DNA of 64,000 nucleotides from Lentimicrobium sp. Lineage in GTDB: Bacteria > Bacteroidota > Bacteroidia > Bacteroidales > Lentimicrobiaceae. Positions 25,726 through 31,555 of this stretch are shown in pieces (position 1 is the first letter of the stretch; each line of letters opens with the position of its first letter). Both the position numbers and the translations under genes were made by a program. The notes under the pieces are model-generated. The model made no database searches and had not been told where the DNA came from. It worked only from the letters and a program-made list of their open reading frames with translations. The stretch is taken from positions 1 to 64,000 of the forward strand of contig JANJXJ010000096.1 of NCBI GenBank assembly GCA_024709105.1, given 5' to 3'.

Positions 25726-25931
25726 TAAAGACATCCCGCATTGAACCTGAAAAGTTTGTAAACTCAACATTTTCAACTTTGGGGCACAAGCTCAGAATGT
25801 GATGTAGAACAGGCCTTACCCCGGTCTCGGCCGGGTCTCGCTACGGCGGGCATTGGACGTTCGAAGTCCCTGGCAGCTCCATTTATGTCGTTTTGGGGTT
25901 TACCAAAACACGCAGGTCAATGCGGGTTTTT
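25726..25931 (+). ncRNA. ssrS: Probable 6S RNA (SsrS-like)
   Basis: This 206-base stretch between zapA and rny has no ORF. CCCGCATTGAACCTG (25735-25749) pairs with CAGGTCAATGCGGG (25913-25926), complementary apart from one missing base and 163 bases apart. Five T residues follow directly. Inside are a second long-range pairing (TGGGGC near 25788 with GCTCCA near 25876) and local hairpins (CCCGG/CCGGG; GGAC-TTCG-GTCC; TTTTGG/CCAAAA at 25891-25908). A long rod with a closing terminal stem and ~200 nt length is the plan of 6S RNA, which sequesters housekeeping RNA polymerase. Placement beside zapA adds support. The 5' end is approximate. A tmRNA was considered, but it is too short and lacks the proper acceptor pairing. 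Confidence 0.6.
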
Positions 25932-25987: not shown

Positions 25988-27529
25988 ATGGAGACATTAA
26001 TAACTGTTCTGGCCTTAATAGCAGGACTTGTAGCCGGTGGACTGATTACCGCTACACTGCTGCGAAAAGCCATTGAAAAGAAAAGTGAACACATTCTGAA
26101 AGATGCCGAAGAAAAAGCAGAAATGATCCGTAAGGACAAAAATCTGCAGGCAAAAGAAAAGTTTCTGCAGATGAAAGCAGATTACGAAAATACCTTTCAG
26201 GAAAAAAACAAGGAAATACTCAAAAACGAAAACCGGCTGAAACAAAAAGAAGCCAGTCTTTCACAAAAATTTGAAGAATTACAAAGAAAACAAAAAGAAA
26301 CCACAGCAATCAAAGACAACCTGACAGCACAGCTCGAGCTGCTTAATAAAAAGCAGACTGACCTGGACAAAGCCATCAAACAGCAGGTTGAACAATTGGA
26401 AGCCATTTCGGGGATGTCGCCCGAAGAAGCTAAAAATCAAATGATTGAAGCCCTTAAAGATGAAGCCAAAGCCGAAGCAATGGTGCACATCAAGGATATT
26501 GTAGAAGAAGCCAAGCTTACTGCAAATACCGAGGCTAAAAAAATTGTAATTGAAACCATACAGCGCACTGCCGCCGAACATGCCATTGAAAACAGCGTTT
26601 CTGTTTTCAATATTGAAAATGAGGAAATTAAAGGTCGGATTATTGGCCGCGAAGGCCGCAATATCCGCACTCTTGAAGCGCTCACCGGCATCGAAATCGT
26701 AATTGACGATTCACCCGATGCCATTATTTTGTCGGGCTTCGATCCGGTGCGCCGTGAGATTGCCCGCCTTTCGCTGCACAAACTGGTTACCGACGGCCGC
26801 ATTCACCCCGCCCGCATCGAAGAAGTGGTAGCAAAAACCCGCAAACAAATTGAGCAGGAAATAATTGAAACCGGCAAACGTACTGCCATTGATCTGGGTA
26901 TTCACGGCCTGCATCCTGAGCTTATAAGAATGATCGGTAAAATGAAATACCGCTCCTCTTACGGACAGAACCTGTTGCAGCACTCCAAAGAAGTAGCCAA
27001 TCTCTGTGCAACCATGGCTGCAGAGCTCGGACTTAGTCCTAAAAAAGCCAAACGCGCAGGGCTGCTGCACGACATAGGCAAAGTGCCCGATAACGAACCT
27101 GAATTGCCACACGCAATCCTGGGTATGAAACTGGCAGAACGATACAAAGAGCCTGCTGACATTTGCAATGCTATTGGTGCTCACCACGATGAGGTTGAAA
27201 TGGAAAGCCTGATTGCACCCATTGTTCAGGTGTGTGATGCCATTTCAGGAGCCCGCCCCGGAGCAAGGCGCGAAGTGGTGGAAGCCTATATTCAACGTCT
27301 CAATCATCTCGAAGAACTTGCCCTCTCCTATCCCGGTGTGGTAAAAACCTATGCCATACAGGCAGGCCGCGAGCTGAGAGTAATTGTAGGCGCCGATAAA
27401 GTAAGCGACGACGACGCCAACAAGATTTCATACGACCTGTCGAAAAAGATACAGGACGAAATGACCTATCCCGGTCAAATTAAAATTACTGTAATCCGCG
27501 AAACCAGAGCCATCAGTTTCGCCAAATAA
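25988..27529 (+). CDS. rny: Ribonuclease Y
   Basis: The protein has 513 residues from the ATG at 25988. Upstream in-frame codons overlap the ncRNA and are not used. N-terminal membrane anchor ([22 protein letters not shown]), long charged coiled coil (~30-175), KH domain ([21 protein letters not shown]), then HD phosphohydrolase domain with LLHDIGK (His361-Asp362) and IGAHHDEVE. It is a membrane-bound endoribonuclease that initiates mRNA decay. The last codons, stop and terminator of this gene reappear twice downstream (see repeats at 29453 and 31017). Confidence 0.95.
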
Positions 27530-27550
27530 ACATAGATTATTGTTATGGGA

Positions 27551-27579
27551 AAAGCATCCTTCGGGGTGCTTTTTTTTTG
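27551..27579 (+). terminator. rny terminator
   Basis: AAAGCATCC pairs with GGGTGCTTT around a TTCG tetraloop (27551-27572) and is followed by a run of T residues. Near-identical copies occur at 29600 and 31164. Confidence 0.92.
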
Positions 27580-28150
27580 CAAACAAAACAGTTCAGAAAT
27601 ATTCATGTCAACGAATTACATGAATTTTCGCGGATTTAGTGCGTAAAGAATTTTAAATTTCTGTGCAATACGTATGTACTTCATAAAGCTAGTATATTGA
27701 TTCAGGTGACCTTATGAGCATAATGATAAAATTGTCAGATTGGCATTTCGGATAAATCATTATAGAAACCTACACAACAAAATATTCCATACCACTAATT
27801 ATCAATACGCCGTTGTCCGGGAAAGAGTAAGAGATTACCTTCCACCGCGCCGCCATCGGCGGCAGGGTTCTGCCGGTGAGCTCCCCCGCTTTCGCTGCAC
27901 TACTTAGTGGCTCGCCTTTGGTCGGTTGTAGTTCCGCTCCAATTTTTTCCTTTTGAGACAACCACTTGTACAATACAACCTGAAGAGCAGAACCCCGGAG
28001 TGGGTTCCCCAAGGATAAAGGGCGACCCTTACAGGGTTGTTTTGTTTGCCTATCCATTAACCACCGGTTGGGCAAGCCGTACCGGGGGGAGACTATGTAT
28101 CAGAATATCCCATATTAAAGGGAAACCCCTAACGGAGTTTTTCAGCATAA
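27580..28150. other. Gene-free island with a string of short hairpins
   Basis: No credible gene was found in these ~570 bp. The part from about 27840 to 28145 is visibly more GC-rich than its surroundings and contains five hairpins in a row: GCCGCC-ATC-GGCGGC (27849-27863), GAACCC-GGGTTC (27990-28007), ACCCT-AGGGT (28025-28037), CCGGT-ACCGG (28064-28085) and AAAC-CC-TAAC-GG-GTTT (28123-28140, followed by T residues, terminator-like). Open frames across it read as low-quality protein on both strands. It could be a decayed insertion or a structured repeat. Confidence 0.45.
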
Positions 28151-28212
28151 ACTAATTAGTAATTAGCATTAGAAATCATTTTCACTAATTAGTAATTGTT
28201 TTTGTATCTTTG
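28151..28212 (+). promoter_or_regulatory. Promoter with paired operator-like repeats, first ATPase gene
   Basis: The -7 box TATCTTTG is at 28205-28212, 13 bp before the ATG at 28226. ACTAATTAGTAATT occurs twice, at 28151-28164 and 28184-28197, offset by exactly 33 bp, and each copy holds the perfect palindrome ACTAATTAGT. The second copy begins 21 bp before the -7 box and fills the spacer where RNA polymerase binds, so a regulator bound there would block or modulate transcription. Confidence 0.6.
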
Positions 28213-28225
28213 TAAAAACGTTTCT

Positions 28226-29494
28226 ATGAAAGCTAAGATACTTCAGGTAGCCTGGCAGCAAAGAGAGCGAATGATCTTTCAAAAGGAATTGATCAATCGA
28301 GATGCGATGCCGGCGGCAAAAGAGGCATTGCTGAGTGATAACCGTGTGCTGATCATAAGCGGGATGCGCCGCACAGGCAAATCAACACTGCTTATGCAAC
28401 TAATGCAGGAAGTGGGAAACGCAGCATATTTCAACTTCGAAGATGAAAAATTGCTGGATTTTACCATCGCACATTTTGGCGATCTTGAAGAAGCGCTTAT
28501 AGAAGTTTACGGCCCTGCGGACTTTTGGTTTTTCGACGAAATTCAAAATGTTGGCAATTTCGAGGTTGCCATTCGCCGTTTGCAGGACAACGGAAAGAAA
28601 TTGGTGATTACCGGGTCCAATTCTTCAATGCTCAGTATGGAATTCGGATCAAAACTTACCGGCCGCTATAAGCAGATCGAGTTGTTCCCTTTTTCGTTTG
28701 GCGAATATCTTCGGTTTCAGAAAATAAATTTTTCAGAAAAGGATTTTTATCTGCCTGAAAGCAGAGTGATGCTCAAGAATCATTTTAATAAATGGCTCAA
28801 CGAGGGCGGCTTGCCCGAATTCCTCAAATATCAGGATGAGCAATATGTAAAAACACTTTTCGACAATATACTTTACCGCGACATTATCGTCCGTTATGGC
28901 ATCCGGCGTCACCGCGAATTCCGCGAACTGGTGCAACTCCTTGCCAGCAATCTTTCCCTGCCGGTAACATTCACTTCACTTCAGAGAAGTATTGGGCTTT
29001 CGAACTCAGATACCATTAAAGAGTACATGGGTTATTTGTCAAATGCCTATATGTTTTACGAAATGTATCAGTTTCATGATTCTGTTAAGAAGCAACTTCG
29101 CGCCCCACGTAAGGTTTATCTTAACGATGTGGCTTTTCATAATCTGGCAGGCTTCAGTTCAACCCCCAATCAGGGGCGCAAGCTCGAGAACGCAGTATTT
29201 CTGACCTTAAGGCGTAAATTATCAATGGTTTATTCGTTCAACGGAAAGGGTGAATGTGATTTTGTTATGCCTGAAAAAAAACAGCAAATCAAAACCATTC
29301 AGGTTTGTCAGCAGTTGACTCCGGAAAATCAAACCCGTGAACTGAATGGCCTTACTGAAGCCATAGAGGCATTTGATTCATTCAATGGTATCATACTGAC
29401 ATATGATCAGGAATATGAATTACAGCACAAAGGAATAAGAATTCCGGTAATTCCAGTGTGGAAATGGATGTTAACCAATACGGCCGACGATTAA
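28226..29494 (+). CDS. AAA+ ATPase of the AAA_14/DUF4143 family (cassette A)
   Basis: 422 residues from the ATG following the promoter. Walker A GMRRTGKST (~46-54), an acidic strand YFNFEDE, Walker B FWFFDEIQ and sensor-type VITGSNSSML, followed by a winged-helix-like region and the DUF4143 C-terminal domain with GECDFVM and IQVCQQL, a degenerate PD-(D/E)xK-like core with Gln/Cys where the catalytic Lys would be. The role of this family is unknown. A second, clearly divergent member follows in tandem; the two share their last codons and ~120 bp of 3' flank almost exactly. Confidence 0.85.
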   Translation: MKAKILQVAWQQRERMIFQKELINRDAMPAAKEALLSDNRVLIISGMRRTGKSTLLMQLMQEVGNAAYFNFEDEKLLDFTIAHFGDLEEALIEVYGPADFWFFDEIQNVGNFEVAIRRLQDNGKKLVITGSNSSMLSMEFGSKLTGRYKQIELFPFSFGEYLRFQKINFSEKDFYLPESRVMLKNHFNKWLNEGGLPEFLKYQDEQYVKTLFDNILYRDIIVRYGIRRHREFRELVQLLASNLSLPVTFTSLQRSIGLSNSDTIKEYMGYLSNAYMFYEMYQFHDSVKKQLRAPRKVYLNDVAFHNLAGFSSTPNQGRKLENAVFLTLRRKLSMVYSFNGKGECDFVMPEKKQQIKTIQVCQQLTPENQTRELNGLTEAIEAFDSFNGIILTYDQEYELQHKGIRIPVIPVWKWMLTNTADD

Positions 29495-29608
29495 CTGCAA
29501 CTTTTTGAGAAATCAATGTGTGTTTTGACAGTAAGCCCGTACAAAAAAGACATTAAAATCAATTGTTTCGCTAAATAAACTAAAATTATTGTTCTGAGAA
29601 AAGCATCT
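29453..29608 (+). repeat. ~155 bp direct repeat, copy A (ATPase 3' end plus copied rny tail)
   Basis: This segment starts in the last codons of ATPase A (KWMLTNTADD) and continues through the stop to a terminator relic. It matches 31017-31171 with about five differences (four substitutions, one single-base indel). From 29565 onward it also aligns without gaps to the 3' end of rny from 27516 (GTTTCGCYAAATAAAC and following bases), including the codons Phe-Ala-Lys-stop. Confidence 0.85.
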
Positions 29609-29626
29609 TTAGGAATACTTTTTTTA
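29600..29626 (+). terminator. Degenerate terminator of cassette A
   Basis: AAAG and CTTT still pair at the ends (29600-29603 with 29618-29621) around AT/AT, but CATCCTTCGGGG has become CATCTTTAGGAATA, so the stem is largely lost while the T-run remains. Read-through into cassette B is plausible. Confidence 0.5.
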
Positions 29627-29737
29627 TCTGTTAGGTTTTGTTTCTGCAAGTGAAATTATCAGTAAACTAAACTTTATTGCCTTTGATAACTTAATGATTT
29701 TTACAAAACCACAGAGATATATGACAAGTATTTCACT

Positions 29738-29792
29738 TTTGTTTTGCATACAAAACAAATTAAGTGTATATTTGTATCGTATACAAAACAAA
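29738..29792 (+). promoter_or_regulatory. Promoter with paired operator-like repeats, second ATPase gene
   Basis: A textbook Bacteroidota promoter: TTTG (29743-29746), 20 bp spacer, TATATTTG (29767-29774). G(C/T)ATACAAAACAAA occurs at 29746-29759 and 29779-29792, offset exactly 33 bp. The first copy starts 21 bp before the -7 box, the same register as in cassette A. A perfect 9 bp inverted repeat (TTTGTTTTG, 29738-29746, with CAAAACAAA, 29751-29759) overlaps the -33 box. Confidence 0.65.
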
Positions 29793-29796
29793 ATCA

Positions 29797-31059
29797 ATGG
29801 AAAGCAGTTCTATAAAAAAAATCATCCTTGAGAATCAGGTTCGTATACCGGGCTTAGATGTCATCAAACGTGCGTATGACCTTGATTCTGAAGTAAATTA
29901 TATTTTTACCGGCCAAAGGCGGGCAGGTAAAACCTGGTTTATGTTCTCAATCATTCAACATTTTCTGCAACTGGGTCATTCTGCGGAAGAAATCCTTTAC
30001 ATAAATTTTGAAGATGAGCGCCTTATTGGACTGGAAATAACCCAGATGGACAGCATCCTCGGCAGTTACCGCGAATTATTCAGTCACAGGCCTTTACTCT
30101 TTTTTGATGAGTTGCAGAATATTGTGGGTTGGCAGAAATTTGCCCGCAGGTTATCTGATTCAGGTTACAGAGTGTACATCACCGGCAGTAATTCCACCAT
30201 GCTGAGTTCCGAAATGGCTTCAACACTCGGTGGCCGGTTTTTGGTTAAGGAAATTGAAACGCTGACTTTCAGTGAGTTTCTTACATTCAACGAACGATCT
30301 CTCAGCCCCAATTTTGAATACTCTGACGAACGATTTGAAGTGTTTCGCCTGTTTGAAAGCTATTTTAATCAAGGAGGCTTCCCCGAGTTGGTGCGTTTGC
30401 GCGACAAAAAGGAATATCTGAGTACAATTTTCCAAAAAGTATTTCTGGGAGATATTATCGCACGAAATCAGATCCGGAACACTTTTGCGCTGAAGCTACT
30501 GATCAAGAAACTTGCTGAAAGCACCATGGATGAAGTATCGTTTACACGGATTCGTAACATCATTGCATCAACCGGCCTGCAGATTGGAACTGCTACTGTT
30601 ATTGAGTATGAACGTTATCTTGAAGAAGCTTTTCTGATCGCATCCCTTCCTGATTTTGGCTCAGGAATCAGCAACCGGGAATCTAAAATGAAATATTATT
30701 TTCGCGATCATGGACTACTTTCCCTGTTTTTGGTCAACCCTGAGTCGTTTGTGCTCGAAACAATGGTCTATAATAACTTGAGAAGGTGGTTTGCACCAAA
30801 TTTATTTTACCTGCGTGATATTACTGAAGTTGACTTTTACATTCCGGGAAAACTGCTTATTCAGGCTGCATGGCGTTTGGACAATGAAACCACCCGAAGG
30901 CGCGAGGTTGCATCACTAATTAAGGCGGCTGATAAATATCCGGCAGAAAAGCTGCTGATTATTACTTACGATCAGGAAGAAAAAATACTGGTTGACAATC
31001 GTATGATACATGTACTCCCAGCGTGGAAATGGATGTTAACCAATACTGCCGAAGATTAA
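29797..31059 (+). CDS. AAA+ ATPase of the AAA_14/DUF4143 family (cassette B)
   Basis: 420 residues from the ATG at 29797, placed after the promoter; the open frame upstream runs through the -7 box and is not used. Walker A FTGQRRAGKTW, strand YINFEDERL, Walker B LLFFDELQN and YITGSNSTML parallel cassette A, but the two proteins differ widely over most of their length. The C-terminal domain has TEVDFYIPGKLLIQAAW, again without a catalytic Lys. The last codons (KWMLTNTAED) and downstream ~120 bp are almost identical to cassette A. No toxin, nuclease or transposase gene accompanies either cassette. Confidence 0.85.
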   Translation: MESSSIKKIILENQVRIPGLDVIKRAYDLDSEVNYIFTGQRRAGKTWFMFSIIQHFLQLGHSAEEILYINFEDERLIGLEITQMDSILGSYRELFSHRPLLFFDELQNIVGWQKFARRLSDSGYRVYITGSNSTMLSSEMASTLGGRFLVKEIETLTFSEFLTFNERSLSPNFEYSDERFEVFRLFESYFNQGGFPELVRLRDKKEYLSTIFQKVFLGDIIARNQIRNTFALKLLIKKLAESTMDEVSFTRIRNIIASTGLQIGTATVIEYERYLEEAFLIASLPDFGSGISNRESKMKYYFRDHGLLSLFLVNPESFVLETMVYNNLRRWFAPNLFYLRDITEVDFYIPGKLLIQAAWRLDNETTRRREVASLIKAADKYPAEKLLIITYDQEEKILVDNRMIHVLPAWKWMLTNTAED

Positions 31060-31171
31060 CTGCAACTTTTTGAGAAATCAATGTGTGTTTTGACAGTAAG
31101 CCGTACAAAAAAGACATTAAAATCAATTGTTTCGCTAAATAAACTAAAATTATTGTTCTGAGAAAAGCATC
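31017..31171 (+). repeat. ~155 bp direct repeat, copy B
   Basis: Partner of the repeat at 29453. Here the terminator half is intact, and from 31129 it aligns without gaps to rny from 27516 with 6 mismatches over 56 bases. The copy abuts the convergent DUF493 gene. Confidence 0.85.
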
Positions 31172-31191
31172 CTTCGGGGTGCTTCTTTTTT
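31164..31191. terminator. Terminator between cassette B and DUF493
   Basis: AAAGCATCC-TTCG-GGGTGCTT followed by C and six T residues. The complementary strand also ends in TTTTC, so it can serve the convergent DUF493 gene, whose stop codon is at 31190-31192. Confidence 0.85.
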
Positions 31192-31468
31192 ACAAATCCA
31201 CTATCCCCTCAATAGCAGCTGCTTTACGGTATTTTACCAATACCTCGGCAGCACTTATCATCATTTCTCGGGCAGTTACTGAGAGGTATTTATCGCCGGT
31301 AGAATTACGCACCTTCAGTTCAGCTCCTTCGCTGAAAATTTCCTGAAGTATAGCATAGTCGCGGTTATTGTTGAGTACAATAAACTTGAACATGTACACC
31401 TTTGGCCATTGGGCTTCGCGGTTCAGCATTTCTTCAAGCCGGCTTAAAAAGTCTTCGTTTATGGCCAT
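31190..31468 (-). CDS. DUF493 (YbeD-like) family protein
   Basis: 92 residues from MAINEDFLSRLEEML; an in-frame ATG at 31498 would add ten residues of less typical sequence. The small alpha/beta domain contains WPKVYMFKFIVLNNN and YLSVTAREMMISAAEVLVKYRK, matching DUF493 in length and pattern. The family is described as a small, ACT-like regulatory fold of undefined function. The gene lies convergent to ATPase cassette B, sharing its terminator. Confidence 0.75.
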   Translation of the reverse strand: MAINEDFLSRLEEMLNREAQWPKVYMFKFIVLNNNRDYAILQEIFSEGAELKVRNSTGDKYLSVTAREMMISAAEVLVKYRKAAAIEGIVDL

Positions 31469-31555
31469 TGCGGTGGTGTTTATTCCTGAGAACAGCACTT
31501 CTTGTATCTCATTTATTGGCAGTGCAAAAGCCCAGGGAAGTTAAAATATTAATAA

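Follow-up and report, generated by a model that had tools for sequence, protein, structure and literature searches.

Results

Three Copies of the rny 3' End Surround Two ATPase Genes

Downstream of rny, the gene for RNase Y, a Lentimicrobium sp. genome carries two genes for ATPases of the AAA_14-DUF4143 type, and the last codons, the stop codon, and the terminator of rny occur three times at this locus, flanking and separating the two ATPase genes. The window, i.e., the whole stretch of DNA that was analyzed, comprises 64,000 nucleotides (assembly GCA_024709105.1, contig JANJXJ010000096.1, positions 1 to 64,000 of the forward strand). Comparison with related loci suggests, at the sequence level, that these widespread, suspected antiviral ATPase genes move as solitary genes and duplicate the site at which they land. 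We consider it probable (roughly 0.6) that the three tails are scars of the insertion of solitary AAA_14-DUF4143 ATPase genes, which would be single-gene mobile units with long direct repeats, followed by recombination between these repeats. Directly supported are the enrichment of repeats beside this ATPase family, the limits of the unit, its horizontal exchange, and the existence of gene-free sites with one repeat copy.

The tail is a 57-bp segment present in three ungapped copies (A, B, and C; Table 1), of which tail A is the 3' end of rny itself and contains four codons, the stop codon, and the terminator. The alignment agrees with the original prediction on the existence and the positions of the three copies. 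A 28-base pattern (TTTCGC to ATTATTGTT) representing the first half of the tail, with up to three mismatches allowed, detects these three sites alone in the 4.47-Mb genome, and its reversed control gives zero matches. The whole tail was not found in 59 other genomes, and a second copy of rny is absent from the own genome at E ≤ 1e-30. Of the 57 positions, 11 differ between A and B, 7 between A and C, and 6 between B and C, so that the 6 differences (of 56) formerly ascribed to B and rny are actually those between B and C. Six differences from A are common to B and C, five are private to B, all of them situated in the terminator, and one is private to C. Phe-Ala-Lys-stop had been described as kept in phase; the statement rests on four codons, and a longer rny homology upstream of Phe-Ala-Lys was rejected since 244 of 1000 shuffles score equally well.

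The similarity between A and C extends over 68 columns and reaches the last codons of the DUF493 gene. Tails B and C constitute the right part of a 179-bp repeat with 93% identity that spans the 3' ends of both ATPase open reading frames (ORFs). Between A and C the ORF list and Pfam reveal two long ORFs, both coding for AAA_14-DUF4143 ATPases, and by inspection no integrase-like ORF, as had been stated before. As the two ATPases are only about 34% identical at the protein level, ATPase 2 is not a duplicate of ATPase 1, and the formerly proposed tandem duplication of a cassette is rejected, the repeat being limited to 179 bp at the 3' ends. We infer that recombination within the conserved 3' ends probably brought the two genes together. 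Over the approximately 117 bp from the ATPase stop codon to the terminator, one indel is the only difference between B and C, and the terminator of tail B (29608-29621, compared with 31172-31185) shows five substitutions within about 18 bp.

Direct Repeats Are Enriched Beside the ATPase Family

Loci were scored as positive if a direct repeat of more than 30 bits was present between the 1-kb upstream and the 1-kb downstream flanks. Within the genus, 75 ATPase hits yielded 69 tabulated loci, 63 of which, from 14 genomes, passed the conditions on flank length and stop codon; six hits were left out (G004:C270, G005:C78:230165, G001:2625624, G013:C79, G009:C143, and G007:C60). A flanking direct repeat is present at 32 of the 63 genus ATPases, compared with 3 of 87 random controls, taken from random regions and from the window (Fisher 5e-12), and with 5 of 87 neighboring non-ATPase ORFs (Fisher 2e-10), loci being counted singly in both tests. 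The three positive random controls consist of two tandem paralogues and one transposase. If loci common to several genomes are merged, repeats are found at 23 of 49. In a wider set, in which 79 of 80 named loci were testable and which is drawn mostly from Bacteroidota but includes other phyla, repeats occur at 21 of the 79 loci vs. 16 of 234 neighboring ORFs. Twelve of these 16 positive controls were inspected and five scanned; two are DUF4143 ATPases themselves and several more are ATPase-like by eye. The isolate Salinimicrobium terrae DSM 17865 (L187) and the two-contig genome G001 are among the repeat-positive cases. The genome of the window (G000) encodes eleven AAA_14-DUF4143-type genes in its 4.47 Mb.

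Gene-Free Sites, Limits of the Unit, and Exchange

At two sites a repeat is present once without the gene in one genome and twice around it in another. G013 has two copies of a 62-bp repeat around 1232 bp where G001 has one copy and no gene, and G018 has two copies of a 52-bp repeat around 1212 bp where G012 has one copy and no gene. A further candidate, G005:C6, is not a clean case as G001 and G013 hold other DNA there, and for the kinase loci of G018 described below, G012 offers neither a match beyond one 276-bp piece nor an empty site.

In four pairs of related ATPases situated at different loci, the colinear DNA in common is limited to the promoter region and the ORF. Identities over this colinear unit amount to 91.5% (G012:C11/G018:C81), 92.1% (G000:C149/G012:C65; one flank short), 96.9% (G001/G002; one flank short, with dispersed repeats also common at other offsets), and 75% (ATPase 1 of the window/G005). 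G018:C15/G012:C56 was dropped as a relocated unit because both are one locus. The orthologue of ATPase 1 in G005 and G013 (78% amino acid identity) adjoins other genes, and the DNA common to these loci begins 75 bp ahead of the ATG and stops 13 bp short of the end of the stop codon, its left limit being the region at 28151-28225 of the window.

In the comparison of G016 with G005, 2395 bp of upstream DNA are 78.0% identical, whereas the left repeat is fully identical (100%) and the ORF (99.8%), the right repeat (98.4%), and 257 bp of downstream DNA (98.1%) are nearly so; the left switch of identity lies 100-200 bp before the unit, and no right switch is seen. Judged from these sequences, the pattern is that of a recent exchange, and the jump in identity indicates that the unit moves horizontally, carried by recombination in its flanks.

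The rny Locus in Same-Genus Relatives

The rny locus is available from 17 of 18 same-genus relatives, G002 being left out as its rny is fragmented. In 12 of the 15 relatives with 1.5 kb of downstream DNA, rny is followed, after a gap of about 55-460 bp, by the convergent DUF493 gene without an ATPase gene between them. Relatives of the two window ATPases occur behind rny in 0 of the 16 genomes with any downstream DNA, and among the genomes examined the rny-DUF493 junction is occupied in the window genome alone.

Nature of the Repeats

Geometry and gene ends were analyzed for 51 loci with repeats of more than 35 bits from the genus and wider sets. The repeats are long and variable (34-278 columns), and identity from copy to copy is often just 75-95%. 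The upstream copy ends most often 100-150 bp before the ATG (18 of 51 loci) and the downstream copy starts between -50 and +100 of the stop codon at 33 of 51 loci, positions that are close to the limits of the DNA common to related units. At 19 of 51 loci a mechanical test, in which some ORFs are doubtful, locates the end or start of an ORF within one of the repeat copies. Convincing copies of gene ends are those of rny, of a yjbQ-like gene (L228, 93 bp, 98%), of a 471-amino-acid ORF (L209), of CHU_C-like ends (G001, G012), and of LytS-like kinase ends (G018). In G018 (L111, L156), three different ATPase genes, in both orientations, are each situated beside the 3' end of a LytS-like histidine kinase gene contained in a repeat. 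In addition, the L191 repeat is similar, by eye, to a glycosyltransferase gene start and the L208 repeat to the end of glmS; the names yjbQ, glmS, glycosyltransferase, CHU_C, LytS, and spmB were read from translations and are not database results. From these sequences a target origin of the repeats seems plausible at gene ends. The term gene-end-targeted, used in the original prediction, suits some loci only; other repeats are dispersed or recur with an ATPase subfamily.

Among 31 classified genus repeats, 19 match at least two other places in the DNA examined and 12 match none or one; five of the 19 match only beside related ATPases. At the window locus itself, a query of 27573-28225 gives eleven matches (query included) in the own genome and ten in G012 at E ≤ 1e-5, mostly located in a dispersed GC-rich repeat at 27874-28158. 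The repeat of the spmB-like group consists of two palindromes, located immediately upstream of the promoter and present once more behind the stop codon. Palindromes as a general target were rejected as downstream copies do not fold significantly better than control segments (Mann-Whitney p 0.31, 51 vs. 97); segments below a z-score of -2, from mononucleotide shuffles, make up 29% of the downstream copies vs. 13% of the controls.

The ATPase Protein

PDC-S01 is the best PADLOC match of both window ATPases (E 8e-106 and 2e-88), for which no PDB relatives are detected by sequence at E ≤ 0.01. The structural model obtained for ATPase 1 (predicted local distance difference test score, pLDDT, 85.6) matches the archaeal AAA+ ATPases 2qen (Z 17.6, root-mean-square deviation, rmsd, 4.4, 267 residues aligned) and 2fna (Z 17.1, rmsd 3.7, 255 aligned). 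The model of the C-terminal domain (pLDDT 82) matches McrBC chain 6hz4_M (Z 8.8, rmsd 3.3, 111 aligned), R.BspD6I2 (Z 8.4), and Can2 (Z 8.4); these matches are re-scored Foldseek hits, and families beyond them may exist. By this modeling, the C-terminal domain has the predicted fold of PD-(D/E)XK nucleases. Another class of the family keeps the E-x-K motif (35 of 149 by a loose pattern), and DNA cutting can be regarded as a candidate activity of the family only.

Layout of the rny-DUF493 Locus

The features of the locus are compiled in Table 1. A search of Rfam with 25.5-32.5 kb of the window gives three matches, all under the gathering score. Upstream of rny, about 200 nucleotides between a ZapA-like ORF, identified by eye, and rny (window 25752-25925) are 79-87% conserved in 17 of 17 same-genus rny loci. 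This layout resembles that of zapA-ssrS (6S RNA). The segment has no match to a 6S family in Rfam at E ≤ 1, and its fold z-score of -0.97 is unremarkable.

Table 1. Features of the rny-DUF493 locus in window coordinates.
Feature	Position	Strand	Evidence or remark
rny (RNase Y), gene with copied 3' end	25988..27529	+	Pfam RNase_Y_N, KH_1, HD
Tail A, last codons of rny, stop codon, and terminator	27516..27572	+	alignment
Dispersed intergenic repeat, between tail A and ATPase 1	27874..28158	.	matches at E ≤ 1e-5
Operator-like repeat pair (ACTAATTAGTAATT x2) with promoter region of ATPase 1	28151..28225	+	putative promoter role
ATPase 1, AAA_14 + DUF4143 (PDC-S01), 422 aa	28226..29494	+	Pfam and PADLOC
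Copy B of the 179-bp repeat, comprising ~16 terminal codons of ATPase 1, a spacer, and the tail	29447..29625	+	repeat search
Tail B, degenerate terminator	29565..29621	+	alignment
Inverted and direct repeats preceding ATPase 2	29737..29793	.	repeat search
ATPase 2, AAA_14 + DUF4143 (PDC-S01), 420 aa	29797..31059	+	Pfam and PADLOC, scanned from 29800
Copy C of the 179-bp repeat, comprising ~16 terminal codons of ATPase 2, a spacer, and the tail	31012..31189	+	repeat search
Tail C, intact terminator, abuts DUF493	31129..31185	+	alignment
DUF493 gene, convergent	31190..31498	-	Pfam DUF493 at 23.2 bits, just under the 24-bit cut-off; neighbor of rny in most relatives

Discussion

The insertion put forward in the original prediction, by which the rny 3' end was entered and regenerated, finds support in the ATPase-free rny-DUF493 junctions of relatives, in the uniqueness of the tail, and in similar scars at other gene ends. 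In such an insertion, the mobile unit would consist of the promoter region with its operator-like repeats and one ORF, and the adjoining DNA would be left as a long direct repeat on either side of the unit, the repeat presumably arising at insertion. At the locus of the window, the duplicated DNA would comprise the final rny codons plus the terminator common to rny and DUF493, and, as the repeat is present on both sides, neither gene would be damaged. DNA bearing ATPase 1 would have entered the rny-DUF493 junction first, presumably, giving tail A and the ancestor of tails B and C, and ATPase 2 would have arrived later by a crossover in the conserved ATPase 3' end, by which the 179 bp of copies B and C would have been duplicated. 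Recombination between repeats, within and between species, might then spread, excise, or exchange units. Candidates for the enzyme involved would be the ATPase-nuclease itself or host recombination.

Several observations weigh against this interpretation. No repeat is detected at 31 of the 63 genus ATPases and 58 of the 79 wider ones, including the orthologues of ATPase 1 in G005 and G013, or at any of the eight plasmid-borne relatives examined (0 of 8; 240 and 518 records matched). Solitary defence-like genes from outside the ATPase family are also flanked by repeats, which speaks against an ATPase-specific mechanism, and the genus genomes are mostly fragmented assemblies. The junctions of relatives, to which the original prediction had looked for empty sites, show rny next to DUF493 without an ATPase in 12 of 15 cases, but the intergenic DNA behind rny has no visible homology to the tail, and therefore the exact empty junction of the own locus is not readable. 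The gene-free sites in G001 and G012 may never have been filled or may have been vacated by excision, gain and loss both being possible. Since the majority of the classified genus repeats match at least two other places, some of them may predate the gene. The kinase copies in G018 stay in frame and at G018:C83 the differences are mainly synonymous, so that these tails may be remnants of paralogues. An spmB-like subfamily member at another locus shows the identical palindrome arrangement; this repeat therefore seems to be part of the element and not a copy of the target, and in this case G001 may represent an excision. Finally, the window ATPases do not display the canonical E-x-K motif, the D being conserved and motif III reading Q-V-C and Q-A-A.

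Some of these points would be expected if ordinary accessory (defence) genes were passively swapped by homologous recombination and gathered where repeats or gene ends tolerate incoming DNA, without any duplication linked to insertion. The 19 of 31 repeats that recur elsewhere, the switch of identity shortly before the G016/G005 unit, and the paralogue-like kinase tails are all in line with such hitch-hiking, and so are other repeat-flanked genes among the controls, i.e., a DUF234 ATPase (L120:4648-6000), RhuM (L125:1069-1905), a PF09820 ATPase (L189:1033-2220), AAA_21 (L242:3904-5142), and a below-cut-off AbiEi match (L212:9886-10500). Although this explanation has to be taken seriously, we consider it unlikely, because it leaves unexplained both how the end of rny, of which the genome has just one copy at E ≤ 1e-30, came to be copied and why 12 genus repeats match no more than one further place, and because 82 of 87 other genes in the same neighborhoods are without repeats.

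A different possibility is that the AAA ATPase-PD-(D/E)XK protein, bound to the palindrome serving as its own operator, nicks the target at widely spaced sites and inserts its own gene, the stagger becoming the long duplication. The common unit contains no other gene, subfamily-specific palindromic repeats flank the gene on both sides at two distinct loci, and the C-terminal model resembles PD-(D/E)XK nucleases. However, the window subfamily has Q-x-C/A in place of E-x-K, half of the genus loci lack a repeat, and non-ATPase genes are repeat-flanked too, so that self-mobilization of this kind appears quite improbable. Similarly doubtful is the more general idea that PDC-S01-type ATPase-nucleases are self-mobilizing, primarily selfish genes that have until now been listed with the antiviral defence candidates, for which one palindrome would serve as operator and as landing or leaving site and which would insert at gene ends with long target duplication. 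That the repeats are selected binding sites, or products of misassembly in metagenome bins, might be suspected from the spmB-like repeats, which are palindromic and adjoin the promoter, and from the fragmentation of most genus genomes. Such an artefact is very hard to reconcile with copies of gene ends (rny, yjbQ-like, and others) that are unlike operators, with the positive results for the two-contig genome G001 and the isolate S. terrae, and with controls from the same assemblies that are mostly clean.

If it is true that solitary ATPase genes move on their own with long direct repeats, mobility may account for their patchy, multi-copy distribution as much as defence does, and a mode of mobility of restriction-modification genes would be extended to solitary genes of the same guild. 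In addition, the repeats provide a signature by which further genomes can be screened.

Unlike an insertion sequence or transposon, the locus has only two ATPases as long ORFs, the common DNA consists of the promoter region and the ORF, and the repeats are long and variable; neither a transposase, nor a short fixed target duplication, nor terminal inverted repeats were noted, the latter without a unit-by-unit search. Integrase-driven islands at gene 3' ends regenerate the gene end at the junction. The rny locus resembles them in this respect, but no integrase-like ORF is present in the interval and the repeats are long, imperfect, and variable. The modeled C-terminal domain, with its PD-(D/E)XK-like fold, shows a weak structural resemblance to XisH-type excision factors (PDB 2okf, 2inb; Z about 6). 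PDC-S01 is a PADLOC candidate defence family found by guilt by embedding, and validation is pending for most PDCs (PMC12988326). Both window ATPases, which match it best, likewise consist of an ATPase fused to a PD-(D/E)XK-like domain, whereas flanking repeats are not mentioned in the passages that describe the family (PMC12988326). In open-licence literature, subscription papers being outside the scope, nothing was found on long target duplication with Bacteroidetes or on PF13635, and none of the open-licence papers on AAA_14 ATPases deals, judged by its title, with the DUF4143 ATPase family.

Insertion of restriction-modification genes with long, variable target duplication was reportedly observed by Nobusato in 2000 and Furuta in 2010. 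Insertion with long target duplication is described for such genes (PMC3031569, PMC1643837). The ATPase loci are similar in that a short gene unit lies between long direct repeats of variable length and in that a gene-free relative has one copy and an occupied genome two (G001/G013, G012/G018). They are dissimilar in that the cargo is a single AAA-PD-(D/E)XK ATPase gene and not a restriction-modification system, and in that the repeats, often of 75-95% identity, are frequently gene ends, dispersed repeats, or operator-like palindromes. The original prediction had envisaged a new type of small island, a view superseded by these earlier descriptions: the ATPase units would extend an already known insertion mode to other cargo, and we do not regard them as a separate kind.

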